A stretch of 64,000 nt of DNA. Origin: Aliikangiella coralliicola. GTDB lineage: Bacteria > Pseudomonadota > Gammaproteobacteria > Enterobacterales > Kangiellaceae. This document shows positions 4,611 to 64,000 of this stretch, piece by piece. The position numbers were made by a program, and so were the translations under genes. The stretch spans positions 483,122 to 547,121 of the forward strand of contig NZ_ML660161.1 in the NCBI RefSeq assembly GCF_007004725.1. The letters run 5' to 3'. Every line of letters begins with the position of its first letter. Positions within the stretch are counted from its first letter, which is position 1. Under the pieces are notes generated by a model. It saw only the letters and a list, made by a program, of their open reading frames with translations, had not been told where the DNA came from and ran no database searches.

Positions 4611-4655
4611 TTAATTTCAAGTCGATCAATTTCGATATTAACCAAGTAACTCCCA

Positions 4656-4692
4656 AAAAGCCTTGCTGGAATGAATCCGGTAAGGCTTTTCT
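4656..4692 (+). terminator. Rho-independent terminator
   Basis: A 9-bp stem (4656-4664 with 4682-4690), extended by further pairs inside, ends in a run of T. It lies about 45 bp after the lipoprotein stop codon. Confidence 0.75.
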
Positions 4693-15296: not shown

Positions 15297-15317
15297 AATG
15301 ATATATGATAAAAGCAT

Positions 15318-18003: not shown

Positions 18004-18045
18004 TCGAATACATAAACTCCTCAATTAGTCTCGTTTACACTGGAC

Positions 18046-18074
18046 GCCAGATAAGGGAACTATCTGGCTTTTTT
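18046..18074 (+). terminator. Rho-independent terminator
   Basis: An 8-bp perfect stem (18046-18053 with 18061-18068), a 7-base loop and six T residues follow the lipoprotein stop by about 43 bp. Confidence 0.88.
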
Positions 18075-39998: not shown

Positions 39999-40018
39999 AA
40001 ATGACAACGCTGTCATTT
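39999..40018. promoter_or_regulatory. NagR-type LacI-family operator upstream of hexosaminidase
   Basis: This is a 20-bp dyad AAATGACA-AC|GC-TGTCATTT, one mismatch near the centre. It matches the dyads before nagK and both TonB receptors. It is 365 bp before the GH20 start, with a terminator in between. Confidence 0.7.
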
Positions 40019-43296: not shown

Positions 43297-43318
43297 ATAA
43301 TGACAGCGCTGTCATTAT
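43297..43318. promoter_or_regulatory. NagR-type LacI-family operator upstream of nagK
   Basis: This is a perfect 22-bp palindrome with core TGACAGC|GCTGTCA, centred at 43307/43308. It lies about 170 bp before the nagK start and is the best copy of the four in the window. Confidence 0.85.
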
Positions 43319-44391: not shown

Positions 44392-44457
44392 GCACGATTT
44401 TTAAATTAGCAATATGTTCAAAGTAGCAAGATGAGTTTTAATATCCAGGATTTAGTC

Positions 44458-46622: not shown

Positions 46623-46648
46623 CGAGCCATCGATAAGGGGGAAACTTT

Positions 46649-48427: not shown

Positions 48428-48466
48428 GTTTCTAAAGTAGTCGCCGACTTAAGAAACCGGATTATT

Positions 48467-48482
48467 GGCGCCGTAAGGCGCC
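48467..48482 (+). other. Short hairpin after symporter gene
   Basis: Two GGCGCC arms (48467-48472, 48477-48482) flank a GTAA loop, 39 bp after the stop. There is no T run, so it may be a 3'-end-stabilising stem instead of a terminator. Confidence 0.35.
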
Positions 48483-48641
48483 TGTAATTTATTTAAACTG
48501 GCCAAAAGGTAAGCAGCATTTTACAGTTGCTTTTTGACAAAAGTAACTGTTCTTAAACAACTTTGAAATATCTTAGTGCATAGCTAACTCGTATGTTAAG
48601 CAATAGAAACTTCCAAAAAAATTATTGATAAAACTTTATTT

Positions 48642-49766
48642 ATGAAGACAAGCAGTACAAATAATCGACTTCTTTCGCTGGACGCACTTCGCGGTTTCGA
48701 CATGATATGGATTTTAGGAGCGGAAGGAATATTCGCAGCGCTGTTTACTTTGACTGGGTGGGAGTTATGGCGAGTATTTGCTGAGCAATTTAAACATAGC
48801 CAGTGGCACGGAATTACATTCTACGATTTAATATTTCCGCTATTTATTTTTCTTTCTGGAGTGACTCTTGGGATTGCCGGAAAATCTCTATTAGGCGTAT
48901 CAACTGAACAGCGTTTAAAAGTATATAAGAAAGCGCTTTTAAGGCTACTATTATTATGTTTTTTTGGGGTTTTGTATAATCATGGTTGGGGGCAAGGCGC
49001 GCCGGTCGATGCTGAGAAAGTTAGATATGCGAGTGTCCTTATGCGCATCGGTGTAGCCTGGTTTTTTGCGGCATTAATCGTTTGGCATTGTAATCTAATC
49101 GCTCAAATTTCTATTGCCATCGGCATACTTTTAACTTATTGGTTTTTTCAGGTTTTCGTGGCTGCACCGTCAGGTTTTTCAGGAGAACTTGTTGCCGGCG
49201 AGTCATGGAACTCGTGGTTTGATCAGCATTTTCTCCCAGGTATTACCTATCAAAACATGTCTCCCGATCCCGAAGGAATTCTTTCTCATATTCCGGCAAT
49301 TGTGAATGCATTAGGTGGTGCTTTTGCCGGAAAAATTATTGTTCAATCAGCATTGCATACAAAACAAAAATTACTTTTTCTAACTGGGTTCAGTGCTACC
49401 TGCTTGTTGTTGGGTTACCTGTGGAGTTTGCTCTTGCCTTTAAACAAAACTTTATGGACAAGCTCTTTCACGTTGGTCTCTATTGGTTGGAGTTGCGTAC
49501 TGCTAATTATTTTTTACTTTTTGATTGATGTACTTAACTGGCGGAGAGTTGGAATGTTTTTCGCTGTTATTGGTGCAAACGCCATTTTGTTATACCTGTT
49601 ATCAAGCCTGTTTAATTGGCAATATTTTATAAATAGTTTATTGGGAGGACTAGTGTCGCGATTTGACAATTCTGTTGGTCCTTTATTAGCCATTGTTGCC
49701 TTGGTTTTAACGCAATGGTTATTGGCAAAATGGCTTTATGAAAAAAAGATCTTTATGCGTGTGTAG
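48642..49766 (+). CDS. nagX: NagX, membrane acyltransferase-like protein of GlcNAc regulon
   Basis: This 374-residue polytopic protein has about ten helices, a DUF5009/heparan-alpha-glucosaminide N-acetyltransferase-like family. Motifs: RLLSLDALRGFDMIWILGAEG and WHGITFYDLIFPLFIFLSGV. The family name NagX comes from Shewanella-type GlcNAc clusters; its exact reaction is unsettled, with transmembrane acetylation of glucosamine-type sugars or transport both proposed. It stands apart from the nag operon by 214 bp, and no operator palindrome was seen before it. Confidence 0.82.
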   Translation: MKTSSTNNRLLSLDALRGFDMIWILGAEGIFAALFTLTGWELWRVFAEQFKHSQWHGITFYDLIFPLFIFLSGVTLGIAGKSLLGVSTEQRLKVYKKALLRLLLLCFFGVLYNHGWGQGAPVDAEKVRYASVLMRIGVAWFFAALIVWHCNLIAQISIAIGILLTYWFFQVFVAAPSGFSGELVAGESWNSWFDQHFLPGITYQNMSPDPEGILSHIPAIVNALGGAFAGKIIVQSALHTKQKLLFLTGFSATCLLLGYLWSLLLPLNKTLWTSSFTLVSIGWSCVLLIIFYFLIDVLNWRRVGMFFAVIGANAILLYLLSSLFNWQYFINSLLGGLVSRFDNSVGPLLAIVALVLTQWLLAKWLYEKKIFMRV

Positions 49767-49906: not shown

Positions 49907-49926
49907 AAATGACAGCGTTGTCAAAA
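49907..49926. promoter_or_regulatory. NagR-type LacI-family operator upstream of TonB receptor
   Basis: The dyad has core TGACAGC|GTTGTCA, centred at 49916/49917, one mismatch from perfect. It lies just downstream of the promoter pair and about 130 bp before the receptor start. Confidence 0.8.
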
Positions 49927-50054: not shown

Positions 50055-52748
50055 ATGTCATCTTATCAATTTAGAAAGCGCTTGCTTGCGAGTAGCATCG
50101 CGGTGGTGTTAGGCACTAGCCTTTCAGCATCGGTGCTTGCAGCAGAGGAAGCAAATAAAACCGAAGAAAACGAAGAGACAGAAAACGTCATCTTAATTAC
50201 CGGTATTCGAGGAAGCTTGAAAACGAGCATTAACAATAAGCGAGCATCTAATGTTGTTATGGACTCGGTTACTCTTGAAGATATCGGTAAATTACCTGAC
50301 GCGAATATTGCTGACACTTTAAGCCGTATTCCGGGTATTGCTGTTTCAAAGCAGTTCGGTGAAGGCGCAACGGTTTCTATTCGTGGCGCAAGTAACCAAT
50401 TTACCTTGACCAATCTTAATGGTCAAAATATCGCCTCAACCGGTTGGTATTCACAACAAGCGATTGACCGTTCATTCAATTTCTCATTGTTACCATCTGA
50501 GCTAATTGCAGGAATCGACGTATATAAGAGTTCTCAAGCTAATATCGTTGAAGGTGGCGTTGGTGGAACTGTTGAAGTTAAAACTCACAAGCCGTTAAAT
50601 CTGAAAGCGAATACCGTTTTTGGTTCTGTTAAAGCTCAATACTCTGATGGCTCAGGTGAAACCGATCCGCAAATATCGGGATTATACAGCTGGAAAAATG
50701 ACGAAGAAACTTTCGGATTTTTATTTGCTGCAGCTAGTCAAGAATATAACCTTGAGAGAAAGGGTACTGAAGCACTTATTTCTTGGGGCGGGCGTGTTGC
50801 TGATGTTAATTTCCAGCAGGCGCGTGAACGATCTGCCTATGATTTAACGTTGCAGTTTGCACCAAATGACAGGTTTGATATGGCCTTGCATTACCTTGAT
50901 TTAGAATTAGGTGCGGATAGTGTTAATACGGCGAACTGGGTACCTCAAATTGGTGGAAGAGCAGATACTGATGGTTGTCAAGCGACTATCCCTGGTAATG
51001 ACGGTGCACCAGTTTGTGTTTTACGTACTACTACAGCTGCAGATGGGCAACAGCCTTTCTGGGATGTGCGCCCACGTAACGCAACAATGACATCAGAGAC
51101 TATCGATTTTAAAGCAACCTATGCTGGCGATACCTATGAACTTTCAGGGCAAATCGGAAAAACTGAAGCGAAAGGTGGAACCAACTTTGAAACCAACTAT
51201 GGTATTTTAAGTATTGATCCACAATTTGCAGCAGGCACAATTGATGCACGTGGCGACAGAGTAATCATGGACGTTCCTGGCTATGGCCCAAGTGATTTAC
51301 CTGGTGCTGGAGACTATGCAACTTGGGAAGGGTTACAGACTAGTCAGGTAGTTAGCCAACCCAATCTAGACGAAGAACAATATATGCAAGTTGATCTCGA
51401 TCTAGATGTTGATTTTGGGGCGATTAATAAATTGGAGTTTGGTATTCGCTCAACTGAACATGATGTTGAAATTAGAACATTCCGAGGCCAGTTTGCTAAC
51501 GGTGTGACCTTCCCTGATGCTTCAACCTGGGCAAGTGGAACATTGGAAGCTGGCTATGATGGTAGATATATCCCCGCGCCAAATGTTGCTGCAATGCTAG
51601 CTCATACTCGTGCCAATATGACTAGTCTAGATGAGGATTTATCTGGTTTCGCAACTGTCAATGAAGAGAACTTCTCCGCTTACGCAATGGCTTCATTTGA
51701 AGGTGATTACTGGCGTGGTAATTTTGGTTTCCGTTTTATCGATACTGAAATTAGCAGTGAATATTATGGACAAACATTTACTGGTGGAAATGTTGTTTTC
51801 AGTAGTAGCACTCAAACTGATAAAGCAAGCTATGATGATGTACTTCCTAGCATGAACCTCGTTTATCAATTGTCAGATGATTCAAATTTAAGATTCACTG
51901 CTGCAACGGTAGTTTCGCGTCCGAATTACGATGATTTGTTTGCTAATTTGGAAGTTAGTGGTAGACCTGATGATAATGTTCCAGGTAATGAAGCATTGAA
52001 TAAAGGAAATGTTTCGTTATTACCATATTCTGCCGACCAGTATGACATTTCGTACGAGTACTACTTCGATGATTCTTCTTTGCTCGGCGTGACACTTTTC
52101 CACAAAGAAGTTAGCGATTTTGTTCGCCCTGTTGTTGAATTAAACCAGTCAATTGGTATTGTTGCTCCTGACTTAGTTGGGTTGACTGCAGCAGAATTAG
52201 CTGCGCTTGGTTGTTCGTCAACTGACTGTTGGGATATTGAACGTTATGGCAACGGAAAAGGCGGCAGTATTTCTGGGGTTGAGCTTCAACTTATCCATGA
52301 CTTCGGTAATGGTTGGGGAACTGTGATCAACTACACTTATAGCGATGCAGAAACTGATCCTGGTAACTATGCAGATAGAAATCCTGCATTTAGTGATAGT
52401 TCAGAAAATTATGTTAATTTAGTCGCGTTTTATGAAGGCGAAAACTTCAGCGCCAGAGCGGCTTATAATTGGCGTAGTGAGTTCATGGTTAGAGAAACTG
52501 GTTTCTATGCTAACCGTCTTCATGACTCAATCGGGACTTTAGATTTGAACTTTGACTATCAAATCAATGATAATCTAAAAGCAGTGTTCGCAGTTGTTAA
52601 TGCAACAGGTGAAGATGACATTGAGACAGGTAACGATAACCCAGCATTGAATGGAAATAGTGGAGCGCCAAGATTTACTAATGGCTATCCAGTATCGTCT
52701 TACCAAAGAGACACGCTAATATCCTTGGGTATCAACTATAGCTTTTAA
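50055..52748 (+). CDS. TonB-dependent receptor, probable GlcNAc/chitooligosaccharide uptake
   Basis: This 897-residue outer-membrane receptor has a signal peptide ending SVLAAEE. A TonB-box-like acidic stretch (EENVILITGIRGSLK) is followed by the plug domain (about 60-180, with IADTLSRIPGIAVS and GGVGGTVEVKT) and a 22-strand barrel ending in the aromatic LISLGINYSF. The start at 50055 follows GGGGGAGA and matches the second receptor's MSS-QF-KRLL N-terminus; the upstream GTG at 49998 is rejected. The operator just upstream and the GlcNAc genes around it suggest chitooligosaccharide import. First gene of module 1 (receptor, halogenase-like, SapC-like, halogenase-like). Confidence 0.9.
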   Translation: MSSYQFRKRLLASSIAVVLGTSLSASVLAAEEANKTEENEETENVILITGIRGSLKTSINNKRASNVVMDSVTLEDIGKLPDANIADTLSRIPGIAVSKQFGEGATVSIRGASNQFTLTNLNGQNIASTGWYSQQAIDRSFNFSLLPSELIAGIDVYKSSQANIVEGGVGGTVEVKTHKPLNLKANTVFGSVKAQYSDGSGETDPQISGLYSWKNDEETFGFLFAAASQEYNLERKGTEALISWGGRVADVNFQQARERSAYDLTLQFAPNDRFDMALHYLDLELGADSVNTANWVPQIGGRADTDGCQATIPGNDGAPVCVLRTTTAADGQQPFWDVRPRNATMTSETIDFKATYAGDTYELSGQIGKTEAKGGTNFETNYGILSIDPQFAAGTIDARGDRVIMDVPGYGPSDLPGAGDYATWEGLQTSQVVSQPNLDEEQYMQVDLDLDVDFGAINKLEFGIRSTEHDVEIRTFRGQFANGVTFPDASTWASGTLEAGYDGRYIPAPNVAAMLAHTRANMTSLDEDLSGFATVNEENFSAYAMASFEGDYWRGNFGFRFIDTEISSEYYGQTFTGGNVVFSSSTQTDKASYDDVLPSMNLVYQLSDDSNLRFTAATVVSRPNYDDLFANLEVSGRPDDNVPGNEALNKGNVSLLPYSADQYDISYEYYFDDSSLLGVTLFHKEVSDFVRPVVELNQSIGIVAPDLVGLTAAELAALGCSSTDCWDIERYGNGKGGSISGVELQLIHDFGNGWGTVINYTYSDAETDPGNYADRNPAFSDSSENYVNLVAFYEGENFSARAAYNWRSEFMVRETGFYANRLHDSIGTLDLNFDYQINDNLKAVFAVVNATGEDDIETGNDNPALNGNSGAPRFTNGYPVSSYQRDTLISLGINYSF

Positions 52749-52774
52749 TTGATATGTAAAGGTATTGCTTAATT

Positions 52775-52811
52775 AGGCCCAGCATTTTTAATGTTGGGCC
52801 TATTTGTTTTT
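52775..52811 (+). terminator. Rho-independent terminator
   Basis: An 11-bp stem (52775-52785 with 52791-52801), loop of 5, then a T-rich tail. It separates the receptor from the halogenase-like gene, so the latter needs read-through or its own promoter. Confidence 0.82.
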
Positions 52812-52917
52812 GCTCAGTTCAATTTTTAAGACAATAAAAACAAACCAAAGAAATTAATTCTTCTATTTAATGTGATCTTTTTGTACTCTGAGCTTGAGTC
52901 GTATTTAGAGGAGTATC

Positions 52918-54465
52918 ATGGCACATATCGAAAATATCATGGTTGTCGGCGGGGGTACTTCCGGTTGGTTGACTGCTGCTATCTTAGCCAGGAAATTTCA
53001 CCAGAATCCCAATAGAAATATCCAGGTGACTTTGTTGGAGTCTTCTGATATCCCGACAATTGGCGTTGGAGAAGGCACTTTTCCGACGATGCTTAATACA
53101 TTGCAATACATAGGTATTGAAGAGTCGGAATTTTTAAAGAGTTGCCAGGCGACTTTTAAACAGGGCATCAAGTTTGTTGATTGGCTAAAGCCGCCATCTG
53201 GCGATCAGCATTCTCACTATTACCACCTATTTAACCCACCAGTGCTTGCTAATGGCGTCGACGTTACTCGAGAATGGCTAGCGTATGAAAAAGATAAACC
53301 AGGTTATTCTTATGCTGTATCCCCACAAGCTTATATTTGTGATCAAAATTTAGCGCCTAAGCGAGTTGATACGGGAGATTACCGCTGGAAAACTAAATAC
53401 GCTTACCATTTGGACGCCGGCAAGTTTGTTGAGCTGTTAAAACGGTTTGCAACAGAAAATCTTAATGTAAAACACGTCATTGCCACTGTTGGTCAGGTTG
53501 AACAAGAGCCAGAGACCGGAAATATTTCTGCGGTTGTTTGTGAACAGGGAATTCGTCGGGAAGCTGATTTTTTTGTGGACTGTACAGGGTTTGCCTCGTT
53601 GCTAATTGGCAAAACCCTAGATTCTCCCTTTGTGGACAAAAGTGATGTGTTGTTTGTTGATAAAGCAATCGCTATGCAAGTACCTTACCTTGATGAAAAG
53701 CAAGCAATTGCCAGCCACACAATTTCTACCGCTCATGAGGCCGGCTGGAGTTGGGATATAGGTCTTAAAAACAGGCGGGGTATCGGATATGTGTATGCGA
53801 GCAATTATACCTCGGGTGAACGTGCTGAACAGGTATTAAGAAACTATGTTGGTAGCCAGGCAGATAACCTGGATGTAAAAAAAATATCGATGCGTGTCGG
53901 CTACAGGGAAGAATGTTGGCGTAACAATTGTGTGGCGATTGGTTTTTCCGGCGGGTTCGTTGAGCCGTTAGAAGCAACTGCGATCTCAATGGTGGAAACT
54001 GGGGCAACCCTGTTAGCGGATCAGTTTCCTGAAGACGAAAATGCCATTCCCGCGATTGCTACTAAGTATAACCAGATATTCAAGTTACGCTGGGAAAAAA
54101 TAGTTGAATTCATAAAGTTACACTATTGCCTAAGCCAGCGGACTGATAGCCAATTCTGGATCGACAATGTAAAATCAACGAGCATACCGAAGGCTTTATT
54201 AGAAAAAATAAACCTCTGGCGTTATTTTCCACCGGTTGAAAATGACTTTGCAAGTCGTTTTGAAATGTTTACGCTAGCTAGTTACCAATATATTCTATAT
54301 GGTATGGAGTTTAAAACCGAGTTACAAAGCGCCTATCTCTCGGGCACTAGAAAGGAAGTGGCTGAAATGGTATTTTCTAAGATACATGAGCAAGGGAGCG
54401 TTGCTTTAAAGGATTTGCCCGACCACAGAGAGTTAATAGAAACATTGAACTCAAGCATTCGTTAG
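52918..54465 (+). CDS. Flavin-dependent tryptophan halogenase-like protein 1
   Basis: This 515-residue protein of the tryptophan halogenase (PF04820) family has FAD motif GGGTSGW near residue 10 and the catalytic-type Lys81 in QATFKQG, as Lys79 of PrnA. The WxWxIP motif reads W277-S-W279-D-I-G, with Gly replacing Pro. The PLE-x-T region is E349-P-L-E352-A-T-A, so the chloride-site Ser and Gly are both Ala. AGAGGAG precedes the ATG. Coded with a TonB receptor and SapC-like protein in a GlcNAc regulon, as in other marine and Xanthomonas-type sugar loci. True halogenation is uncertain; a different flavin oxidation is possible. Confidence 0.82.
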   Translation: MAHIENIMVVGGGTSGWLTAAILARKFHQNPNRNIQVTLLESSDIPTIGVGEGTFPTMLNTLQYIGIEESEFLKSCQATFKQGIKFVDWLKPPSGDQHSHYYHLFNPPVLANGVDVTREWLAYEKDKPGYSYAVSPQAYICDQNLAPKRVDTGDYRWKTKYAYHLDAGKFVELLKRFATENLNVKHVIATVGQVEQEPETGNISAVVCEQGIRREADFFVDCTGFASLLIGKTLDSPFVDKSDVLFVDKAIAMQVPYLDEKQAIASHTISTAHEAGWSWDIGLKNRRGIGYVYASNYTSGERAEQVLRNYVGSQADNLDVKKISMRVGYREECWRNNCVAIGFSGGFVEPLEATAISMVETGATLLADQFPEDENAIPAIATKYNQIFKLRWEKIVEFIKLHYCLSQRTDSQFWIDNVKSTSIPKALLEKINLWRYFPPVENDFASRFEMFTLASYQYILYGMEFKTELQSAYLSGTRKEVAEMVFSKIHEQGSVALKDLPDHRELIETLNSSIR

Positions 54466-54508
54466 TATAAAAAGCCTAGTCTTTAGTCAAATTTCCATTG
54501 GAGAATTC

Positions 54509-55225
54509 ATGCAAGAAAATATTGTTCAGTTAGATAAAGTCGAGCATTCTGATATTAAGCTCAAAAACAGTTTAGATTTAAAACGGGCGGGTTCAGGTAA
54601 TATGTCGCCGGTTATAGTTCATGAAATCCCTCAGCTTTCGACTCAGTTCCCACTGATATTTATTAAGAATAGCAATACCGGTGAGTTTAACTGGGTTGCA
54701 TTATTCGGACTTGAGTCTAAGCAAAACTTATTTGTTGAAAACGAAAAGTGGACCGGAAAAGAGATCCCCGCGATTATGACTCACGTGCCATTAGGCATGA
54801 CCACACTACCAGAAGACAACGATAAATTGTTGGTTGTAATTGATACTTTAAGCCATTTGGTGAGCAAAGATGAAGGTGAAGCACTATTCAATGAGAATGG
54901 CGATGAAACTGAATTTTTGAAAAAACGCATTCAAGCGATGCTTACTTATCAACACCACGCAAAAGTAACCAAAGAACTTATACAATTAATTGTAGAGCTG
55001 GATTTATTGGAATCAAAAGAGTTTTCATTTGAAATTGGCGGGGATAAGAAAAACCTCGGTGGAATGTACTTAATCTCAGAAGAAAAACTCAACAAATTGC
55101 CAGACGAGAAGATACTTCTTCTTCAGAAGAAAGGAGTTTTAGGAGCAATTTATCACCACTTTTCTTCTCTCCATAATTTCAAGTCGTTGCTAAATAGATT
55201 GAGTGAAAGGCAAGGAGCAGCTTAA
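54509..55225 (+). CDS. SapC-like protein (PF07277 type)
   Basis: This 238-residue soluble protein has the SapC-family profile: an N-terminal PVIVHEIPQLSTQFPLIFIKN block, LFGLESKQNLFV, FNENGDE, and a C-terminal LNKLPDEKILLLQKKGVLGAIYHHF. TGGAGAA precedes the ATG. The function is unknown; the family takes its name from the S-layer-associated SapC of Campylobacter but has no settled role. It lies between two halogenase-like genes with short gaps (43 bp and 10 bp), so it is likely co-transcribed and functionally linked. Confidence 0.78.
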   Translation: MQENIVQLDKVEHSDIKLKNSLDLKRAGSGNMSPVIVHEIPQLSTQFPLIFIKNSNTGEFNWVALFGLESKQNLFVENEKWTGKEIPAIMTHVPLGMTTLPEDNDKLLVVIDTLSHLVSKDEGEALFNENGDETEFLKKRIQAMLTYQHHAKVTKELIQLIVELDLLESKEFSFEIGGDKKNLGGMYLISEEKLNKLPDEKILLLQKKGVLGAIYHHFSSLHNFKSLLNRLSERQGAA

Positions 55226-55235
55226 GCAAAGCATT

Positions 55236-56777
55236 ATGATTAAAAGCATTGTTATTGTTGGCGGTGGAACTGCAGGTTGGATAACGGCAAATCACTTGGC
55301 GGTCGCGTTAGGTGGTGCTGGAAAATCTTCGGTGCAAATTACACTTTTAGAGTCTCCCGATATTCCAACGGTTGGGGTGGGAGAAGGCACAGTTCCGGCA
55401 ATGCGCAACACGCTAGCCCATTTTGGTATACGAGAAACTGACTTTTTGCGCGAGTGTGATGCAACATTCAAACAAAGCATTAAGTTCGTTGATTGGGTAC
55501 ATAATCCTGGTGCTAGCGTGAATAATTTTTATCACCACGTATTTGATTATCCGGCTATTTACCCATTAAATACGGTTCCATATTGGCTTCTTGAGCCCAA
55601 TAATTTGAAGTTTGCTGATGCGGTTTCATTACAAGGTAAAGTTTGCGACGCAGGGTTAGCGCCCAAGATGATTACTCATCCTGAGTTTCAAGGGGTTACA
55701 GAGTATGCCTATCACCTGGATGCAGGTAAGTTTTCACAATTGCTGGCAAACAACGCAGTTAACAAGCTTGGTGTAAAACATGTTAAAGCGAATTTAACTG
55801 ACGTTGATATCGATGAAAGCGGTGACATTCAGTTTGTTAAAACAGACAGAGCTGGTGATTTGAAGGGAGATCTTTTTGTTGATTGTAGCGGCTTTAATGC
55901 ACTCTTGATTGACAAGAAATATAAGGTTAAATTTATTGATCAAAGCCAACATTTATTTGTCGACACGGCTTTAGCAATGCAAGTTCCCTATCAAAATCCT
56001 GATGATCCTATTGCCTCTCACACTATTGCGACGGCGAAACAATCTGGGTGGATTTGGGATATTGGTCTATCGAGTCGGCGTGGTGTTGGTTACGTATACT
56101 CTAGTCAATATACCGATGATACGAGTGCTGAAGAGACCTTGAGAAATTATGTCGGTGGTGCTGCTTCCGAATTACAATGCCGTAAAATATCCATGAAAAT
56201 AGGTTATCGCGAAAAATTCTGGGTGAATAATTGCGTGAGCATCGGATTGTCACAAGGCTTTGTAGAACCGCTTGAAGCAACCGGACTATTATTATTTGAC
56301 GCCGCAGCAAAAATGTTGGCTGAGTTGCTACCAGGTCACAAACAAGATATGGCTAAAACGTCCAGGTTATTTAATCAAAGATCCACTTACACCTGGAAAC
56401 GAGTTATTGATTTTATCAAGATGCACTATTATTTATCTCAGAGAGATGACTCAGAATTTTGGATCGATAATCGTAAAGCAAGTTCTGCACCGCAGTCATT
56501 ACTTGAGGCGTTGGATTTATGGCATAATCGACCTCCAAGTGAATATGATTTTTTCTCACGGTTTGAGGCATTTAACTTAGATAATTATCTGTATGTACTT
56601 TACGGTATGGAATTTCAAACTAATATGAGCGGAATTGCCGGGCGCTATACTCAAGCTGAAAAAAGCCAAGAGTTTTACCGGCGATTTAGCCAACAATTTG
56701 ACGAGTTAAAAACGCAATTGGAACCTAATCGAAAATTGCTCGGTCGAATCAAAAAGTATGGATTGCAAACTTGTTAA
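55236..56777 (+). CDS. Flavin-dependent tryptophan halogenase-like protein 2
   Basis: This 513-residue paralogue begins MIKSIVIVGGGTAGW. Catalytic-type Lys79 is in DATFKQS and the second motif is W272-I-W274-D-I-G. The halide-site region is E344-P-L-E347-A-T-G, the most PrnA-like of the four, keeping Thr-Gly. The ATG at 55236 is preferred over the longer GTG frame at 55203, because the FAD motif then sits at the usual position and the gene starts 10 bp after the SapC stop. Third partner of module 1. Confidence 0.82.
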   Translation: MIKSIVIVGGGTAGWITANHLAVALGGAGKSSVQITLLESPDIPTVGVGEGTVPAMRNTLAHFGIRETDFLRECDATFKQSIKFVDWVHNPGASVNNFYHHVFDYPAIYPLNTVPYWLLEPNNLKFADAVSLQGKVCDAGLAPKMITHPEFQGVTEYAYHLDAGKFSQLLANNAVNKLGVKHVKANLTDVDIDESGDIQFVKTDRAGDLKGDLFVDCSGFNALLIDKKYKVKFIDQSQHLFVDTALAMQVPYQNPDDPIASHTIATAKQSGWIWDIGLSSRRGVGYVYSSQYTDDTSAEETLRNYVGGAASELQCRKISMKIGYREKFWVNNCVSIGLSQGFVEPLEATGLLLFDAAAKMLAELLPGHKQDMAKTSRLFNQRSTYTWKRVIDFIKMHYYLSQRDDSEFWIDNRKASSAPQSLLEALDLWHNRPPSEYDFFSRFEAFNLDNYLYVLYGMEFQTNMSGIAGRYTQAEKSQEFYRRFSQQFDELKTQLEPNRKLLGRIKKYGLQTC

Positions 56778-57248
56778 TAAACAAAATAGTGATTGCATAT
56801 CATTTATTTTTTGCTACGTAAAAAAATTATCCGAAGTTAATATTAAGCTATTTGAGCACAATTCTTTTCGTACTTCTTAACACTTAATCTATTTGGAAAT
56901 TTCAGCTAACCTTCTTAGTTTTAGTATCTAAAAATATCTAGAAAAAGTTATAAAAATCGGCGCTCACTAGAAAATTTTGTTACTTACAATAAGAAAATTG
57001 GACTATTTATAATAGTTTTACGCGTGTTAAAAAATCTCAAAAAAGTAATACGCAATAAGTGACTTTAATTTAGTGATAATTTAATGGAGTAATTATTGCT
57101 GAGCTCACATTAAATATCTTATGTAACTTCATGAAAATTAAGTTTTTATCCGAACAAATCTCATTATTCAAAATTAAAAAATGTGAAGTGATTAAAAAAA
57201 ATTACATTCAAATAGCGAACCTTTTTTCGACGAAATTTTTCACTAGCA

Positions 57249-57277
57249 ATCAAATTAAAATCAGTGTATGGTTTATA
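57249..57277 (+). promoter_or_regulatory. Promoter of second TonB receptor gene
   Basis: ATCAAA (57249-57254) and TTTATA (57272-57277) have 17-bp spacing, and the operator core TGACA starts 11 bp after. This is the same geometry as at 49871-49910. Confidence 0.55.
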
Positions 57278-57285
57278 TTCAAATG

Positions 57286-57303
57286 ATTGACAGCGTTGTC
57301 AAT
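57286..57303. promoter_or_regulatory. NagR-type LacI-family operator upstream of second TonB receptor
   Basis: An 18-bp dyad ATTGACAGC|GTTGTCAAT with one central mismatch, centred at 57294/57295, just downstream of the promoter pair. Same core as the operator at 49907. Confidence 0.8.
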
Positions 57304-57480
57304 TGAGTCTAGAAAAATAAAAATTATCGAATTGAGATAATTTGAATTGAGACGAACTCGAAACATAGTTTTTTGGGAACTTTGTGTTTGAATTTGTAGC
57401 AGTTGTGTCTATGCTTGTTCCTAATTAAGAGCTGATGTTATAAGCCTCAATATAGAAAAACATTTTGAAGGGGAAATAGG

Positions 57481-60123
57481 ATGTCATCTTGTCAATTTAA
57501 GAAAAGGCTATTGGTAAGTAGCATTGCGATGGCTTTGAGCGGTAGCTTCGCCACATCTTTACTTGCTGCTGAAGCAGAGCAATCTCAACAAGACTCGGAT
57601 GATTCGGAAGAAGAAACCGTCATTGTTATCACCGGAATTCGCGACAGTTTAAAAGCAAATTTATCTCAAAAAAGACATGCGAATTCTGTCATAGAAGCCA
57701 TAACAGCAGAAGACATCGGAAAGTTTCCTGATAAAAACTTGGCCGAGTCGTTACAGCGTGTTCCTGGGGTTACTATTAACCGTGGTTTTGCAGGTGAAGG
57801 TAACGAAGTTACCATTCGTGGTGTTGACCCTCAGCTTACCCAAACGCTGGTTAATGGACAGTTTGTTGCGTCAACTAGCTGGTTTTCCCTCGCTTTCAAC
57901 CGGCGAAGTTTTAACATGGATTTAATGCCATCGGAAATAGTTTCTGGCATTGAAGTACATAAATCCCCAACCGCTTCACTTGATGAAGGTGGTGTGGGCG
58001 GTACAGTTATTTTAAAAACTCGCAAGCCTTTAGAGATAGAAGCCAATAAGTTTTTTGCTTCAGCAGAAGTAATGAAAAACTCATTTGAAAGCGATACCGC
58101 GCCAACAGTGAATGGTATGTACAGCTGGAAGAATGAACAAGATAATTTTGGTATTTTGGCAGCATACTCGCGAGCCGAAACAATTGGTTTTGGAAATAAG
58201 GCAGAGAACTACTGGGAAGAAGCCTGGTCGGCTTCCGGGATTTCTCAATTTCGCCAGGAACGAGTTCGAGACACCTTTGATATTAATGTGCAGTATGCAG
58301 TTAATGAGCGTTTGAGTTTTGATTTACACTATTTTGAGAGCACCTTAGAAGCCGATAACACCAATCAAAACTTTTTGCTTTTTGGCGGCTGTTGTAGTCC
58401 TACTGGTGGGTTATCAACTTTCGCTGCTGGCTCTAGCTCTACGGTTTCTCCGACGACTGGAATACCAATGGCGGGTACACTGATTGGCGGTGGTAGCAAT
58501 TGGGTGCTAGCGCAAGATGTTAATAGTCGACGTCCAGAGCTGAAAAGTGATTTGGTAGATTTCACTGTTGATTATGAAGGAGACTCATATAAATTTCATG
58601 GGTCTGTCGGCTCAACAACAGCGTCAGGTGGTAATGGTGGAAATGTTAATTCCCTTTGGGGCATTACCGGGACTGACACACGTTGGTTAGGTAATGGGGG
58701 AAATGTCAGTGTCGACTTTGATATGACTTTAGCATCAGGGATGTTTGTTAATGTGAATGGCTTAGATCTCAACGACCCAAATTGGCAGGGAAACCTTGCT
58801 GCGTCACTCTCCGAAACTACCTTATATGATGAAGAAGACTGGCTACAGGTAGACCTTGAATTTGATATGGAGTGGGAGGTCGTTGAAACAATTAAGGTTG
58901 GGATGAAAGCTCGTGACCACAAGTTTGGTAAGTCTCAGACCAATTTTACTGTTGATACGAACGCTATTTTGGGGGCTAACTCGACGCTAGGTAGTTCCGG
59001 TTTTTACAGTGGCGGGATTAACGTTTCTGGCGTAATGGCCAGTGGTTCCGATATGGTTATTGCCGGTGTTGGTTCAGGGTTTGATTCTGCTGTCAGGTCG
59101 AATATAACAGGGGCAACTCCGCTTTATGCTGCCTTCGGTGATGTTGAAGAGGAGATCAGTGCATTTTATGTTCAGGCCGATTTTGCCGGTGACTATTACC
59201 GCGGAAACTTTGGCATTCGCTATGTAGAAACAGACGTGACGGGATCGACTTTCGCTGATGGAAATGATCCAACTTCTCGATTCAGCCGTACATCGAATTA
59301 TTCCGATGTATTGCCAAGTTTTAACTTGGCCTATGATTTAGCTGAAGACACTATTTTAAGATTTTCTGCCGCGGAAGTGATGAGCCGTCCAGCGTATGGA
59401 ACGCTCAATCCCGCTCTAGGTGGTATCAACCCCACCAGTAATGTTGCCTCGTCAGGAAACGTTGCAATTGACCCATTCCGTGCCAATCAATTTGACGCGG
59501 GAATTGAGTGGTATTTCGGCGATAACAATTTTATTGGCGCCGCGATATTTTATAAAGATATAGAGTCATTTGTGACCAGCGGAACGATTCAAGATTTAGT
59601 TTTTGAGCCGAATGGTGATCAAGGCGCACCTAATGATCTAGAGCTTTATACGTTAACAGTTCCAATTCAAGGAAAGGGCGGACATGTACAGGGAATCGAG
59701 TTAAATTATCAACAGTTGTTTGGCAACTTTGGCTTTATTGGGAATGTGACCATTTCTGATAGTGAAGGTGAAACAGATGACGGTAGTAAATTTGATTTAC
59801 CGGGTAATTCTGAACTTTCCTATAACTTAACTGGGTTTTACCAGGTAGACGACTTCGAAGCACGGCTGACTTATACTTTCCGTGATGAATATCTGGCTGA
59901 AGGTACAGCAATATCGGGTTCTTTGGATGTATTCGAAGAGCAAGGATATCTCGATGGCGGCGTAACCTGGCATGTTAATGACTATCTTGACTTGAGTTTG
60001 GAAGGTATTAATTTACTCGAAGAAACCACAATTCAGAGACATGGAACAGGAACGCTTGGAACTAATCGGGTGACAACCGAAAATGGCGCTCGTTACTATA
60101 TAAAAGCAGCAATACGCTTTTAA
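57481..60123 (+). CDS. TonB-dependent receptor, second copy
   Basis: This 880-residue outer-membrane receptor has a signal peptide ending TSLLAAEAEQ, an acidic TonB-box-like stretch (EEETVIVITGIRDSLK), a plug (about 60-175, with LAESLQRVPGVTI and GGVGGTVILKT) and a barrel ending in YYIKAAIRF. It is clearly a paralogue of the receptor at 50-52.7 kb but divergent in the barrel, so its ligand may differ. It begins module 2, with halogenase-like and SapC-like genes in the same order. Confidence 0.9.
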   Translation: MSSCQFKKRLLVSSIAMALSGSFATSLLAAEAEQSQQDSDDSEEETVIVITGIRDSLKANLSQKRHANSVIEAITAEDIGKFPDKNLAESLQRVPGVTINRGFAGEGNEVTIRGVDPQLTQTLVNGQFVASTSWFSLAFNRRSFNMDLMPSEIVSGIEVHKSPTASLDEGGVGGTVILKTRKPLEIEANKFFASAEVMKNSFESDTAPTVNGMYSWKNEQDNFGILAAYSRAETIGFGNKAENYWEEAWSASGISQFRQERVRDTFDINVQYAVNERLSFDLHYFESTLEADNTNQNFLLFGGCCSPTGGLSTFAAGSSSTVSPTTGIPMAGTLIGGGSNWVLAQDVNSRRPELKSDLVDFTVDYEGDSYKFHGSVGSTTASGGNGGNVNSLWGITGTDTRWLGNGGNVSVDFDMTLASGMFVNVNGLDLNDPNWQGNLAASLSETTLYDEEDWLQVDLEFDMEWEVVETIKVGMKARDHKFGKSQTNFTVDTNAILGANSTLGSSGFYSGGINVSGVMASGSDMVIAGVGSGFDSAVRSNITGATPLYAAFGDVEEEISAFYVQADFAGDYYRGNFGIRYVETDVTGSTFADGNDPTSRFSRTSNYSDVLPSFNLAYDLAEDTILRFSAAEVMSRPAYGTLNPALGGINPTSNVASSGNVAIDPFRANQFDAGIEWYFGDNNFIGAAIFYKDIESFVTSGTIQDLVFEPNGDQGAPNDLELYTLTVPIQGKGGHVQGIELNYQQLFGNFGFIGNVTISDSEGETDDGSKFDLPGNSELSYNLTGFYQVDDFEARLTYTFRDEYLAEGTAISGSLDVFEEQGYLDGGVTWHVNDYLDLSLEGINLLEETTIQRHGTGTLGTNRVTTENGARYYIKAAIRF

Positions 60124-60133
60124 CCTGCTTATT

Positions 60134-60159
60134 AAGGCCGGAAAATTCTGGCCTTTTTT
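60134..60159 (+). terminator. Rho-independent terminator
   Basis: A 10-bp stem (60134-60143 with 60146-60155) and a T run follow the receptor stop. As in module 1, a terminator sits between the receptor and the halogenase-like gene. Confidence 0.85.
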
Positions 60160-60477
60160 AACTCTTCAAATATTACCTGCTATCAATATTGGGTTATTTT
60201 TTGCCGCCCTTTATTTGTTGTAAAAGTCGTTAGTTCTCGAAACAATAACCTGCAAAATGATTCTCCATATTGTAAATGAATTTGATTGTATTCGAAGCTC
60301 TTGATACCTTAATCAACGGACGCTATTAAGTTTAAATGTTTCTTGATAATTAGAATAAATTAATAAATTGACACGTCTGGCTACTCATTAATAACTTAAC
60401 GGTGTGATCAATATTTAAATTGGGTGAGCTCAGAAAAGACTAATATTATTAACAATAATAAACATGAATGACACTTG
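60160..60477. other. Intergenic region before halogenase-like gene 3
   Basis: This 318-bp AT-rich stretch should contain the promoter for the downstream genes. No operator palindrome like those before the receptors was seen, and no strong ribosome binding site. Confidence 0.35.
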
Positions 60478-62061
60478 ATGAAAAAAGTTAATAAAGTACT
60501 TATTGTTGGCGGCGGAACGGCGGGATGGATAACGGCTGCAAAGTTAGCAAAAAACTTGCAAGCTGATTCTTCCGATGGCGTAGAGGTTACTTTAGTCGAA
60601 TCTCCAGATATTCCAACCATTGGCGTCGGCGAAGGCACCTGGCCGACGATGCGTAAGACGCTACTTGAACTTGGTATTAATGAAGGTGAGTTTATGGCTT
60701 ATTGCCAGGCTACTTTCAAACAGGGGACAAAGTTTGTCAATTGGAAAAAAGAACCTGGAGATAAGGCGGCTCACACTTATTATCATATGTTCAGTTCTAT
60801 TTTCGATCCGTCCGATTTCAATTTAGCGCCATACTGGTTAGCTGGAATAGCCGGAGAAAATACAACATTTGCCACTGCGGTCAGTGCCCAGGGGAATACT
60901 TGCGATTTGGGATGTGCTCCCAAGAAAATTACTGATCGTCCTTTTGACGGTGTGCTTAGCTATGCCTATCACCTCGATGCGGGAAAGTTTGCGGAGTTTT
61001 TAACGCAATTTGCCACGGAGAAGTTAGGTGTTAAGTTAATTAAAGCGAATGCTACGCAGGTCCACTTAACCGAAAACGGTGACATTAAAGGGATCTCAGT
61101 TGACCGAAACGAACAAGGGGAAAGAGAGTCTTCTGAGAACATGGTTTTAGAAGCCGATCTTTTTGTTGATTGTACTGGTTTTCGTAGCCTTTTATTGGGG
61201 GAATCATTGAATGTCTCGTTTAAAAGTGTTGCAGACACCTTACTAACTGATACTGCGATTGCCATTCAAGTTCCTTACGAATCAGAAGATGCACCTATTC
61301 CCTGCCAAACCAATTCGATTGCACAAGAATCTGGTTGGATTTGGGATATCTCACTATTTAATCGTAGGGGGACTGGTCATGTTTTCTCATCTAATCATAT
61401 GCACCCTGATGAAGCTGAATCTGTTTTAAGAAAACACATTGGTCCCGTTGCTAAAGAGTTAGAATCTCGGACCATCAAAATGAATATTGGTTATCGAGAA
61501 AAGTTTTGGGAGAAAAACTGTGTTGCCGTTGGTTTATCTGCTGCCTTTGTAGAACCTCTTGAAGCTTCAGCGATTTTCCTTATTGAAGCTGCGGGCAATA
61601 TGTTAGTTGATATGTTTCCGAAAACGCGCGATGCAATGGACTATGCGGCCCAAAGGTATAACCAGTCTTTTCTATATCGATGGGAAAAAACAATCGAGTT
61701 TATAAAGCTCCATTACTATCTATCACAAAGAGAATCTAAATTTTGGCAAGACAACAAAGCTGACGAAACTGTACCTGAGGTTTTGCGAGAAAGAGTCGCA
61801 CATTGGAGAACGCATCCGGTCAGTAAATATGAATTTGATAATGTGTTTGAGCCTTTCCCTCATGAAAGTTACCAATATGTTATTTATGGCATGGGTATTC
61901 ACGAAAATGGTCGGTTTTCACGACAGCACTTATCGGATCAAAACAAAGCCATGGAGTATTTTAAGCGAGTTCGACAGGCGACAGAACTCATTAACAAAGA
62001 TTTACCACAACACAGGGAACTACTGAAAAAAGCCTATCAGTATGGTTTTCAAACTCTGTGA
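60478..62061 (+). CDS. Flavin-dependent tryptophan halogenase-like protein 3
   Basis: This 527-residue paralogue begins MKKVNKVLIVGGGTAGW. Lys81 is in QATFKQG, the second motif is W287-I-W289-D-I-S, and the halide region is E359-P-L-E362-A-S-A, lacking both Thr and Gly of PrnA. A TTG just before the ATG is a weaker start. First halogenase-like gene of module 2, 354 bp after the receptor stop. Substrate unknown. Confidence 0.82.
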   Translation: MKKVNKVLIVGGGTAGWITAAKLAKNLQADSSDGVEVTLVESPDIPTIGVGEGTWPTMRKTLLELGINEGEFMAYCQATFKQGTKFVNWKKEPGDKAAHTYYHMFSSIFDPSDFNLAPYWLAGIAGENTTFATAVSAQGNTCDLGCAPKKITDRPFDGVLSYAYHLDAGKFAEFLTQFATEKLGVKLIKANATQVHLTENGDIKGISVDRNEQGERESSENMVLEADLFVDCTGFRSLLLGESLNVSFKSVADTLLTDTAIAIQVPYESEDAPIPCQTNSIAQESGWIWDISLFNRRGTGHVFSSNHMHPDEAESVLRKHIGPVAKELESRTIKMNIGYREKFWEKNCVAVGLSAAFVEPLEASAIFLIEAAGNMLVDMFPKTRDAMDYAAQRYNQSFLYRWEKTIEFIKLHYYLSQRESKFWQDNKADETVPEVLRERVAHWRTHPVSKYEFDNVFEPFPHESYQYVIYGMGIHENGRFSRQHLSDQNKAMEYFKRVRQATELINKDLPQHRELLKKAYQYGFQTL

Positions 62062-62135
62062 TTAGCAGCTATGCACCTAATTTGTACGAGGGATACTGCT
62101 TAGCGATTATATTAAATATAAAAGAGTGATTTTCT

Positions 62136-62843
62136 ATGACAAAGTTTGTTCCTATCAACAAAGATACTCATAAGAATATTAGAGTAAAGCAGGATTTAAG
62201 TTTTACTCACGCGAAAAACAGCCACGTTTGTCCTTTGAATGTTCATGAATATATTGTGGCCTGTCATGAGTACCCAATTTTATTCGCTAAAGATTCGGAT
62301 ACTGGGCAATTTCGCTCGATTGTATTATTGGGTTTAAAACCGAAGCAAAATCTTTTTTATCATGAGCAAGGGTGGCGAAGTCGCTATGTCCCTGAATCGC
62401 TAAGAGCTTATCCGTTTTTACTAAGTCCTGACGAAAATAATCCGGATCAGGGCATTCTTTGTATGGACGAAGATTCTGATTTAGTGGGAGTCGATACTGG
62501 CACAGCATTATTTAACGAAGATGCTTCTCAAACGAAATATACAAACGACACTGGCGACTTTTTAGCGGCTTATAATTCTAAGTTACAGATAACTCAAAAC
62601 GTCATTCAGTGTTTGTTAGACAATTCTCTTTTGGTCGCGCGTACATTGGAATTAGAATTGCCGCAGGAAGGTGGTTATAACCTTTCGGGTCTCTATGTTA
62701 TCGACGAAGAAAAGCTCAATGAACTCTCTGACGAAAAGTTTCTCGATCTGAAAAACAAAGGGTATTTGCCACTAATTTACGCAGTTTTACTGTCAATGTC
62801 ACGGATTGATAAGTTAATTAACTTGTCATCTCAATCAAATTAA
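62136..62843 (+). CDS. SapC-like protein, second copy
   Basis: This 235-residue homologue of the SapC-like protein in module 1 has the shared blocks LNVHEYIVACHEYPILFAKDSDTG, LLGLKPKQNLFY, ALFNED and LNELSDEKFLDLKNKGYLPLIY. It has no signal peptide or membrane helix, so it probably stays in the cytoplasm. It lies between two halogenase-like genes, just as its paralogue does. Confidence 0.78.
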   Translation: MTKFVPINKDTHKNIRVKQDLSFTHAKNSHVCPLNVHEYIVACHEYPILFAKDSDTGQFRSIVLLGLKPKQNLFYHEQGWRSRYVPESLRAYPFLLSPDENNPDQGILCMDEDSDLVGVDTGTALFNEDASQTKYTNDTGDFLAAYNSKLQITQNVIQCLLDNSLLVARTLELELPQEGGYNLSGLYVIDEEKLNELSDEKFLDLKNKGYLPLIYAVLLSMSRIDKLINLSSQSN

Positions 62844-62905
62844 ATTAGTTGTTTTTCTTTAAATTTCTATGAAAGCTAGTCAGATTTAAAAAATGGGTGA
62901 AAGTA

Positions 62906-64000
62906 ATGACTGAATCTATTGATCGAGTGTTAGTTGTCGGCGGCGGAACTGCCGGTTGGCTAAGCGCCGCTATATTGGCTCGTTCATTCAACAGCCATTT
63001 GCCCGGCGCAGTAAAAGTGACCTTGGTTGAGTCACCTGATATTCCTATTTTAGGTGTTGGAGAGGGTACCTGGCCGACGATTCGAGCGACATTAAAGAAA
63101 ATTGGAGTTGATGAAAGTGAGTTTATGAAAGAGTGCGACGCCACTTTTAAACAGGGATCTGAATTTGTTAATTGGATGGCGACTGATGATTATACTACTC
63201 ACCGATATTTTCATCCTTTAAGTGCTGTTTTTCACTCTGCTTATGATTTTAGCCTGGCCCCTTACTGGTTATCTGGTAGTGCAAACGATTTACCTTATGA
63301 TATTGCTGTTGCCAGTCAGACTGCGATTTGCAAAATGGGTCTTGCACCGAAAAAGATAACAACGCCTGCGTATGAAGCAATTCAGAATTATTCTTATCAC
63401 TTAAATGCGAATAAGTTTGCCGCTTTTTTAACGCGTCATTGTGTTGAAAAGTTAGGTGTTGAACATTTGGTCGCTAATGTAACGGATGTTGAGCTAGATG
63501 AAGCAGGGTTTATCCGGGCAGTAAATACAGATAATCATACTATCGAAAGTATTAGCGCAGATTTTTTTGTTGATTGCACTGGAGGACGTTCAATTTTACT
63601 AGGCGGTGCCTTAGGGGTTCCCTGGAAAAAAATTGACGATGTAATTTTTAACGACACAGCATTAGCGATGCAGGTTCCCTACCAAACTTCAGATGCTCCA
63701 ATTGCAACCCATACAATAGCGACAGCACATGACGCCGGTTGGACTTGGGATATTGGATTAAGTAATCGTCGTGGAGTCGGCTATGTTTATTCCAGCCAGC
63801 ATACCACTGACGAGAAAGCTGAAGAGACTTTGCGTCGTTATGTTGGAGAAAGTGCCGACCAGCTCGAAGCTAGAAAAATTAAACTTAATTTGGGTTATCG
63901 AACTCAATTTTGGAAAAGTAATTGCCTGGCTTTGGGAATGTCTGCTGCTTTCATTGAGCCACTAGAGGCGTCTGCTATTTTTTTGATTGATGCTGGGGCA
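62906..64000 (+). CDS. Flavin-dependent tryptophan halogenase-like protein 4, 3' end outside window
   Basis: The frame is open from the ATG at 62906 to the window end (365 codons), so only the C-terminal part is missing. It begins MTESIDRVLVVGGGTAGW, with Lys82 in DATFKQG, the second motif W279-T-W281-D-I-G, and halide region E351-P-L-E354-A-S-A. It completes module 2 (receptor, halogenase-like, SapC-like, halogenase-like). The region before it is 62 bp after the SapC-like stop. Confidence 0.82.
   Translation, partial: MTESIDRVLVVGGGTAGWLSAAILARSFNSHLPGAVKVTLVESPDIPILGVGEGTWPTIRATLKKIGVDESEFMKECDATFKQGSEFVNWMATDDYTTHRYFHPLSAVFHSAYDFSLAPYWLSGSANDLPYDIAVASQTAICKMGLAPKKITTPAYEAIQNYSYHLNANKFAAFLTRHCVEKLGVEHLVANVTDVELDEAGFIRAVNTDNHTIESISADFFVDCTGGRSILLGGALGVPWKKIDDVIFNDTALAMQVPYQTSDAPIATHTIATAHDAGWTWDIGLSNRRGVGYVYSSQHTTDEKAEETLRRYVGESADQLEARKIKLNLGYRTQFWKSNCLALGMSAAFIEPLEASAIFLIDAGA

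Follow-up and report, generated by a model that had tools for sequence, protein, structure and literature searches.

A receptor-linked cassette of halogenase-like enzymes and SapC downstream of NagR-type palindromes in Aliikangiella coralliicola

What might enzymes of a flavin halogenase family be doing in operons that begin with a sugar-type outer-membrane receptor? The question is raised by a stretch of 64,000 nucleotides from Aliikangiella coralliicola ("the window"; contig NZ_ML660161.1, positions 483,122 to 547,121 of the forward strand), in which a gene for a TonB-dependent receptor is followed by a gene for a PF04820 halogenase-like protein, a SapC-family gene and a second halogenase-like gene, and in which this order occurs twice in succession. 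A first-pass annotation had reported the repeated order and a NagR-type operator for each receptor, and both are confirmed here: exact matches to the palindrome TGACAGCGTTGTCA, listed without strand, lie upstream of receptor 1 (49910..49923) and receptor 2 (57288..57301). Our tentative answer, held with limited confidence and built from sequence comparisons, is that these are receptor operons under the control of NagR, each with a cytosolic oxidation cassette made in small amounts, of putative activity, that would act on a protein and perhaps on the receptor itself.

The receptor-linked cassette and its distribution

All genes of the two modules lie on the plus strand. Module 1 consists of the receptor T1 (50055..52748), the halogenase-like H1 (52918..54465), the SapC protein S1 (54509..55225) and the halogenase-like H2 (55236..56777; the listed open reading frame has a GTG start at 55203). 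Module 2 consists of T2 (57481..60123), H3 (60478..62061), S2 (62136..62843) and H4 (62906..64000, continuing outside the window); it is complete, because H4 closes 468 bases past the window edge (L002:2590). The starts of T1, H2, H3 and H4 are later in-frame ATG codons of our choosing. Both receptors match PF00593 and PF07715 in Pfam and TIGR01782 in NCBIfam (577 and 574 bits; cut-off 310), the four halogenase-like proteins are full-length PF04820 matches at 414-427 bits against a cut-off of 21 (H1 427, H2 415, H3 419 and H4, as a whole protein, 415), and S1 and S2 match PF07277 with 204 and 227 bits against a cut-off of 28.9. By inspection, a signal sequence is present in the receptors and in none of the halogenase-like and SapC proteins. 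Directly 3' of each receptor gene, on the plus strand, stands a terminator-like hairpin, with 13 pairs and a T-rich tail after T1 (52774..52802) and nine pairs followed by TTTTTT after T2 (60134..60155).

Within the order, SapC occurs in 35 of 148 genomes; for the phylum the figure is 104 of 299. Linkage was surveyed in eight genomes selected for SapC, taking PF04820 matches at E 1e-40 or better and a radius of 6 kb. Proteins of this family are commonly named tryptophan halogenases and are mined for natural products; yet 49 of the 52 genes in these SapC-bearing genomes lie near a sugar-type (TIGR01782) receptor, against 2.1 expected by simple coverage, and 48 of the receptor-near genes are co-directional with and downstream of the receptor. 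One of the three exceptions, in A. coralliicola itself, sits 3' of a receptor of another subfamily. Seen from the other side, 33 of 89 TIGR01782 receptors have a PF04820 gene within the same distance.

A wider set of loci was picked by the halogenase alone (alignment A2) as the best 80 of at least 594 candidates. These loci are biased to close kin because they are the best-scoring set, the SapC alignment (A1) being too diverse for such a scan. Within 6 kb they hold a receptor matching a TIGR01782-type profile in 63 cases, SapC in 54, Cupin_8 in 29, a second halogenase in 27, DUF6445 in 16, nag genes in 5 and GH1/GH3 genes in 26; our open-reading-frame filter misses some genes (SapC goes unlabelled in L037, a locus chosen for having one, the halogenase near the match in L107 and L112, and some receptors of other subfamilies elsewhere). 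Receptor, SapC and halogenase occur together somewhere in the locus in 50 of the 80, which come from Gammaproteobacteria (30), Alphaproteobacteria (17) and Betaproteobacteria (2), with one unplaced. Since the cassette is found alike beside nag/N-acetylglucosamine (GlcNAc) genes, GH1/GH3 (beta-glucosidase) genes and agarase genes, it is not specific for amino sugars.

With T for the TonB-dependent receptor, H for the halogenase-like protein, S for SapC, K for Cupin_8 and D for DUF6445, the commonest of 80 co-directional module strings are T-H-S (16), T-H-S-K-H (14), T-H-S-D (8), T-H-S-K-H-D (6) and T-S-H-H (6), the rest being rarer; divergent SapC-Cupin_8 pairs, found in several Sphingomonas loci, are left out of these strings. 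The full string T-H-S-H is peculiar to the window, L093 reading T-H-S-H-S. The first-pass annotation had looked to gene order in other genomes, where a random order would have spoken against a module. The order after the receptor does vary (T-H-S, T-H-S-K-H, T-S-H-H and T-H-H-S are all seen), and what stays is the leading place of the receptor in 70 of 80 strings, so that the order is not random. GlcNAc-type T-S-H(-H) modules in L045, L046, L062, L064 and L095 have a gene for a sulfotransferase (PF13469 in the case of L045) as neighbour.

Halogenase genes also occur on viral contigs. Profile searches of 80 such loci (L241-L320) found a DUF6445-type gene in four, and no SapC, TIGR01782-type receptor or Cupin_8. 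Of 96 viral motif readings of the twelve commonest kinds, 87 end in IP, 6 in VP and 3 otherwise, with 64 WxWNIP (fragments included). By these motifs, and with no SapC, receptor or Cupin_8 found beside them by our profiles, phage halogenases look like a separate, canonical branch, and a phage route for the cassette was rejected.

In the open-licence literature we found no paper that combines tryptophan halogenase, SapC and TonB-dependent receptor, and none that joins tryptophan halogenase, TonB-dependent and polysaccharide utilization; the available part of PMC8269204 contains none of the terms TonB, receptor and SapC. (Papers given by PMC number are cited throughout for those parts of their text that were available.) The recurrent receptor-linked cassette is real, and it is undescribed in the papers reached by open-licence searches. 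The remark of the first-pass annotation that the same gene kinds occur near sugar receptors in other bacteria, with a joint role that is unsettled in the papers found, was sound.

The enzymes, SapC and the added oxygenase-type proteins

The FAD-motif (flavin adenine dinucleotide) glycines and the catalytic residues Lys79 and Glu346 (PrnA numbering) are kept in H1-H4, and this Lys and Glu are each found in 174 of 174 aligned PF04820 proteins; judged by their catalytic residues, the enzymes of the cassette look intact. The identity of the two PrnA residues is taken from the literature, and positions 347-349, by motif and general knowledge, we take to be the halide site. The motif WxWxIP, for which a role in suppressing monooxygenase action has been suggested, is absent from H1-H4, which read WSWDIG, WIWDIG, WIWDIS and WTWDIG, i.e. 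WxWDI(G/S). At the 347-349 positions, after the Glu, H1 has A-T-A, H2 A-T-G, and H3 and H4 both A-S-A. The halide-site difference that had been claimed for the paired paralogues is thus seen in module 1 and fails in module 2. The Gly at the second halide-site position (Fx.Px.Sx.G) is present in H2, with Ala in H1, H3 and H4; BrvH and the Xcc enzymes likewise do without it (PMC7336383).

Two classes can be defined by position: class A halogenases precede SapC (64 rows besides those of the window) and class B halogenases follow Cupin_8 (31 rows). All 64 class A rows have the Asp of WxWD, none has the Pro, and 63 have Ala at 347, while all 31 class B rows have WxW(R/Q/K)IP and S-T at 347-348, and 25 have Ser at 349. 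On a 169-row tree, 30 class-B rows need three changes. Cupin_8 is present in 32 of 34 SapC-centred modules with a class-B enzyme versus 14 of 62 without (Fisher p 2.8e-12, a value that ignores ancestry). By motif H1-H4 are all class A, so that each window module has an A+A pair where the widest cassette combines A with B. The solved structures nearest to H1 are 2pyx, 9lu2 and 9ltb; those nearest to a class-B protein, the second halogenase of a T-H-S-K-H-D module, are Xcc4156, 9luq and BrvH.

Other members of the family occur in the A. coralliicola genome. A canonical halogenase-like gene (WIWDIP, E-S-T-G) lies 3' of a TonB receptor of another subfamily (L003:5131-9984, contig C1). At L004:6193-10595 (C2:128-132 kb) a class-A halogenase gene (WIWDIG, E-A-S-A) is paired, without SapC, with a TIGR01782 receptor gene on the opposite strand, next to genes that by inspection are GH2-like and SMP-30-like. 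A weak PF04820 match at C4:487046-488137 (about 40 bits, in two pieces within one 418-aa frame) is outside the survey counts.

The SapC protein S1 is modelled by AlphaFold2 with a mean pLDDT of 95. Foldseek gave no match to this fold in the PDB at E 0.001 or better and none among viral models, and the best values of a second fold comparison (Z 2.1) and a PDB sequence search (E 0.085) were poor, which does not in itself prove a new fold. Our guess is that SapC could be a scaffold or substrate-recognition protein. In L047, L051, L054 and L066 a SapC gene without receptor or halogenase lies, by inspection, between dipeptidase-like and mraZ/mraW-like genes.

Two further proteins extend the cassette elsewhere. 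One module Cupin_8 protein has FIH and JMJD5 as its nearest solved structures, C2orf60 ranking lower in the list; H-x-D/E and a distal His are present in 47 of 47 Cupin_8 proteins. The DUF6445 protein (PF20043; L036:6039-6794 and 24 further loci) has an invariant H-x-D and His, and the folds closest to its model (mean pLDDT 91), at Z 14.5 to 12, are those of OGFOD1 (Z 14.5; 2.9 A over 178), PHD2 and lysyl hydroxylases; Foldseek, too, places OGFOD1 first. The predicted fold of DUF6445 is protein-hydroxylase-like, and a shared fold shows no function.

Descent, operators and hairpins of the two modules

The first-pass annotation called the module duplicated, a word that the data oppose. Identities between the modules are 38% for T1-T2, 32% for S1-S2 and 44% for both H1-H3 and H2-H4; within modules they are 46% for H1-H2 and 48% for H3-H4, i.e. 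not below those of the paralogues in corresponding positions. A 47-row tree places H3 with the SapC-adjacent and H4 with the receptor-adjacent halogenase of the modules L071 and L120 from two other genomes, the two groups being sisters (support 97); H2 falls inside an 18-row GlcNAc-type clade, and H1 forms a long branch next to a Dyella protein (and stands alone in a larger quick tree). Approximately unbiased (AU) tests reject H1+H3 (p 3.5e-4) and H2+H4 (1.7e-5); such bare-pair tests are weak, because H3+H4 is rejected too (3.8e-11), each having nearer kin elsewhere. With orthologues added, in groups defined once the tree was known, the tests again reject H1+H3 (p 0.014) and H2+H4 (p 0.017). 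S2 and T2 also cluster with L071 and L120 (supports 98 and 100).

A single tandem duplication of the four-gene block would account for the shared order and operator; it is compatible with the SapC tree, which fails to reject S1+S2 (p 0.50), and with the receptors, both of which lie within one 22-row module-receptor clade. Against it stand the rejected halogenase pairings and the fact that T2, H3, S2 and H4 each go with L071 and L120, and we regard it as very improbable. Judged by their halogenases, the modules do not look like copies of one four-gene block, SapC alone being uninformative here. Their similar order appears best explained by rearrangement or separate assembly, since L071 and L120, the kin of module 2, have the order T-H-H-S.

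The palindromes, of the form TGACANCGNTGTCA, we take to be the NagR motif. Exact copies start at 40002, 43301, 49910 and 57288 in the window, and at up to two mismatches there are 8 matches, a number that none of 100 shuffles reached, against 2.1 expected. Besides the two receptor sites, TGACAACGCTGTCA (40002..40015) lies upstream of a GH20 beta-hexosaminidase gene (40383..43250, plus strand; PF00728, 305 bits) and TGACAGCGCTGTCA (43301..43314) upstream of the kinase gene that opens a run of nag genes (43480..49766, plus strand). This run, whose specific roles we assign from Pfam families and locus, encodes a BadF-type sugar kinase (43480-44391), a SIS-domain protein (44431-45486), a NagA-like amidohydrolase (45486-46622), an SSF symporter (46649-48427) and a NagX-like membrane protein (48642-49766), whose PF01757 score of just 21.6 bits is below the cut-off of 31.

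The genome as a whole has 14 exact places, and 37 matches at up to one mismatch versus 10 for a control pattern; two of the 14, on C1 and C7, have the form TGACACCGGTGTCA. One exact site (C2:547980) falls in the gap where H4 and a GAPDH gene (Pfam) converge, a place with no obvious promoter role. Beyond this gene, also on the opposite strand 3' of module 2, come Entner-Doudoroff and pgi genes (by inspection) and then, on the plus strand, a LacI-type regulator (L002:11065); another exact site (C2:555894) lies between divergent pgi-like and LacI genes. Of six further exact places that were inspected, four adjoin chitinase-type genes (three GH18, one ChitinaseA_N) and two adjoin other genes. Because the palindromes recur at GH20, kinase and chitinase genes, both modules belong, on this sequence evidence, to a chitin/GlcNAc regulon, and it is very likely that NagR, by binding at these sites, controls them.

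The hairpins recur as well. Cassette genes follow one another at median distances of 4 to 29 bases; the median is 105 from receptor to halogenase and 138 from receptor to SapC. An 82-nt stretch at the T1 hairpin folds with -26.3 kcal/mol (z -4.5); the corresponding 82-nt stretch at T2 gives z -2.0, with 8 of 200 shuffles folding equally well. The best hairpin beat all 20 base shuffles in 66 of 90 receptor-to-cassette gaps (40-450 bases) versus 1 of 43 cassette-internal gaps (at least 40 bases, and shorter, with a median of 65). When gaps of similar length are compared, stems of at least 10 pairs are found in 56 of 85 receptor gaps (median 106 bases) versus 49 of 272 other co-directional gaps (median 114). 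Over the whole stretch the terminator-like pattern is not enriched (13 matches versus 13.2 in shuffles). The placement of the hairpin fits an arrangement that gives much receptor and little enzyme, as with catalytic helpers, and fits other roles too.

Other features of the window are named here by inspection. Three tandem, similar, large secreted-type proteins (2-7664) share repeats of about 'GIDCG(S/N)DC' and a long common C-terminal part, and look like a local gene family expansion. Two further proteins (14367-20173) have repeats of this type fused to a different common C-terminal domain, which also occurs without the repeats at 14367-15317 on the minus strand. The stretch 11314-36497 is biosynthetic-looking, with two asparagine-synthase-like genes, carbamoyltransferase-like and acyl-CoA-ligase-like genes, and an NRPS-like gene (21516-24746).

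Possible substrates and known systems

How might such operons work? We suggest two separately descended operons, each encoding a TonB-dependent receptor for GlcNAc or chito-oligosaccharides followed by two FAD-dependent PF04820 enzymes and one SapC. A GlcNAc-derived metabolite would release NagR from the palindrome that is seen upstream of each receptor, and transcription would largely end at the hairpin that is seen after the receptor gene, yielding much receptor and little cassette. With reduced FAD and O2, and with or without halide, the two enzymes would act, by oxidation or halogenation, on an aromatic side chain of a polypeptide that is yet to be exported, the first candidate being the receptor precursor from the same operon, and SapC might recognize the substrate or serve as scaffold. 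In other genomes the cassette also includes a BrvH-type enzyme and proteins of the Fe(II)/2-oxoglutarate type, similar to protein hydroxylases. A bolder proposal, which we consider rather doubtful, is that of a widespread receptor-finishing system in the sugar-receptor operons of Proteobacteria: a cytosolic cassette of flavin halogenase-like enzymes, SapC, FIH-like Cupin_8 and prolyl-hydroxylase-like DUF6445, kept to catalytic amounts by the hairpin, would oxidise or halogenate side chains of the receptor ahead of its export.

A protein substrate is favoured by analogy, because a peptide substrate has been proposed for BrvH and Xcc4156 (PMC7336383), the kin of a class-B enzyme, because one Cupin_8 protein is FIH/JMJD5-like and the DUF6445 model hydroxylase-like, and because the enzymes show a weak resemblance to QhpG and LodB. 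Several observations weigh against this reading. In the eight surveyed genomes 56 of the 89 TIGR01782 receptors lack a PF04820 gene within 6 kb. Among 118 SapC proteins, 13 are encoded with neither halogenase nor receptor nearby. The hints from Cupin_8 and DUF6445 come from other genomes, both genes being absent from the window modules; C2orf60 presumably acts on tRNA; and in the DUF6445 fold lists small-molecule enzymes are close behind (PolD 12.7, PasI 12.5), with HygX second in Foldseek. The QhpG and LodB scores are far under their cut-offs, and a true halogenase, CmlS, scores equally or higher (up to 49). The hairpins 3' of the receptor genes may be ordinary operon tuning.

The receptors themselves, which the first-pass annotation had named as a possible target, give no simple one. 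Among 146 aligned receptors (90 from modules, 56 others) no receptor-wide target residue was found, which likewise speaks against the receptor as substrate. The most telling column is a Trp (W825 of T1), present in 80 of 90 module and 14 of 56 non-module receptors; T2 has Phe there, and the column is unchanged in 7.8 of 10 independent tree pairs on average. The independent-pair test rejects this Trp as a common target in the sense of a general rule, with low power, because the module label changes only about 11 times on the tree. Columns that track Cupin_8 or DUF6445 look like clade marks and were not used. A plug-loop Trp (ASTGW or ASTSW) is found in the receptors of GlcNAc-type loci and in no other aligned module receptors.

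The substrate could instead be a polypeptide other than the receptor, namely SapC itself or a peptide encoded elsewhere, which we think fairly unlikely. SapC is small, has no PDB fold match and accompanies halogenases in 54 of the 80 loci, and MibH, SrpI and ChlH are precedents for flavin halogenases acting on peptides (PMC12615548). Most of the conserved SapC residues, however, are shared by the 13 SapC proteins with no halogenase or receptor nearby; exceptions are G58 (85% of halogenase-linked versus 0% of solitary proteins) and Y187 (84% versus 23%), which ancestry may explain. SapC as a Trp-bearing substrate was rejected: W81 is near-invariant in a 36-row alignment, yet does not reach 85% in 96 halogenase-linked SapC proteins. 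No conserved precursor-like small open reading frame was found among 1375 small frames in 356 module gaps, and the precursor of a ribosomally synthesized and post-translationally modified peptide was rejected as a candidate, the small-frame clusters being derived from the operator ('MTALS') or confined to close relatives.

The remaining alternatives concern small molecules. That the cassette makes or alters a small aromatic compound (indole or phenol; a signal, toxin or metal ligand) tied to the receptor during chitin feeding is possible, if somewhat doubtful. The catalytic residues are intact, small-molecule enzymes are among the folds closest to DUF6445, and halogenation of free indole in vitro has been described for BrvH and the Xcc enzymes (PMC5945002, PMC7336383). 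However, BrvH is so slow on indole that its own authors doubt that this is the natural substrate (PMC5945002); no biosynthetic gene is seen to recur in the gene strings, whose unlabelled genes are not all annotated; the cassette follows receptors beside very different sugar genes; and the top folds of both added oxygenases are protein hydroxylases. Aromatic aglycones or adducts entering with the sugars would suit the 26 of 80 loci with GH1/GH3 genes within 6 kb. This is an improbable reading, given GlcNAc and agar loci without an aromatic aglycone, and no ring-cleavage gene is seen to recur, though no profile search was aimed at such genes. Least of all do we expect an action on the imported amino sugar or its oligomers, which the first-pass annotation had entertained, and to which the NagR-type palindromes and nag neighbours would point: the identical cassette adjoins beta-glucosidase and agarase genes, and flavin halogenases act on electron-rich aromatics, whereas GlcNAc has no electron-rich aromatic ring.

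If the preferred reading of a protein substrate is true, post-translational modification of outer-membrane transporters would be a common part of bacterial polysaccharide feeding. The hunt for the native substrate of BrvH-type enzymes would gain a concrete candidate in the receptor or another protein of the operon, and SapC, which has no known fold relative, and DUF6445 would be tied to the same job.

Parallels with known systems can be drawn at several levels. The window resembles carbohydrate TonB-receptor loci and the regulon of the LacI-type NagR in its TIGR01782 receptors, nag genes and palindromic operators, and NagR regulons containing TonB receptors have been described (PMC5343134, PMC2996990). 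Unlike the window operons, those of the NagR-regulon and sugar-receptor papers (PMC5343134, PMC2996990, PMC1790865) include no halogenase or SapC in the available main text. A speculation on halogenase and receptors (PMC11337851) rests, in its available part, on transcripts assigned to phages and Colwellia, without an operon or receptor-gene link. QhpG, LodB and GoxB are flavoproteins that hydroxylate or finish protein-bound Trp; QhpG resembles FAD halogenases and hydroxylates Trp of a partner protein from the same operon (PMC7876137). Their NCBIfam profiles bear a weak resemblance to the cassette enzymes, with best scores below cut-off (QhpG 44 versus 240, LodB 37 versus 400, GoxB 18 versus 400), and they differ in having a quinone-enzyme partner, none of which is seen at the window modules. 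BrvH (6frl) and Xcc4156 (6y1w) carry WxWxIP and E-S-T, the class-B signature that is absent from H1-H4, and BrvH has an adjoining second halogenase gene, with 42.7% identity (PMC5945002). Finally, H1-H4 share with the flavin-dependent (tryptophan) halogenases PrnA and RebH and the unassigned PF04820 structure 2pyx the same family over its full length, GxGxxG and the catalytic Lys and Glu, and differ from them by WxWDI(G/S), Ala at 347, Ala or Gly at 349, and a setting in receptor operons.

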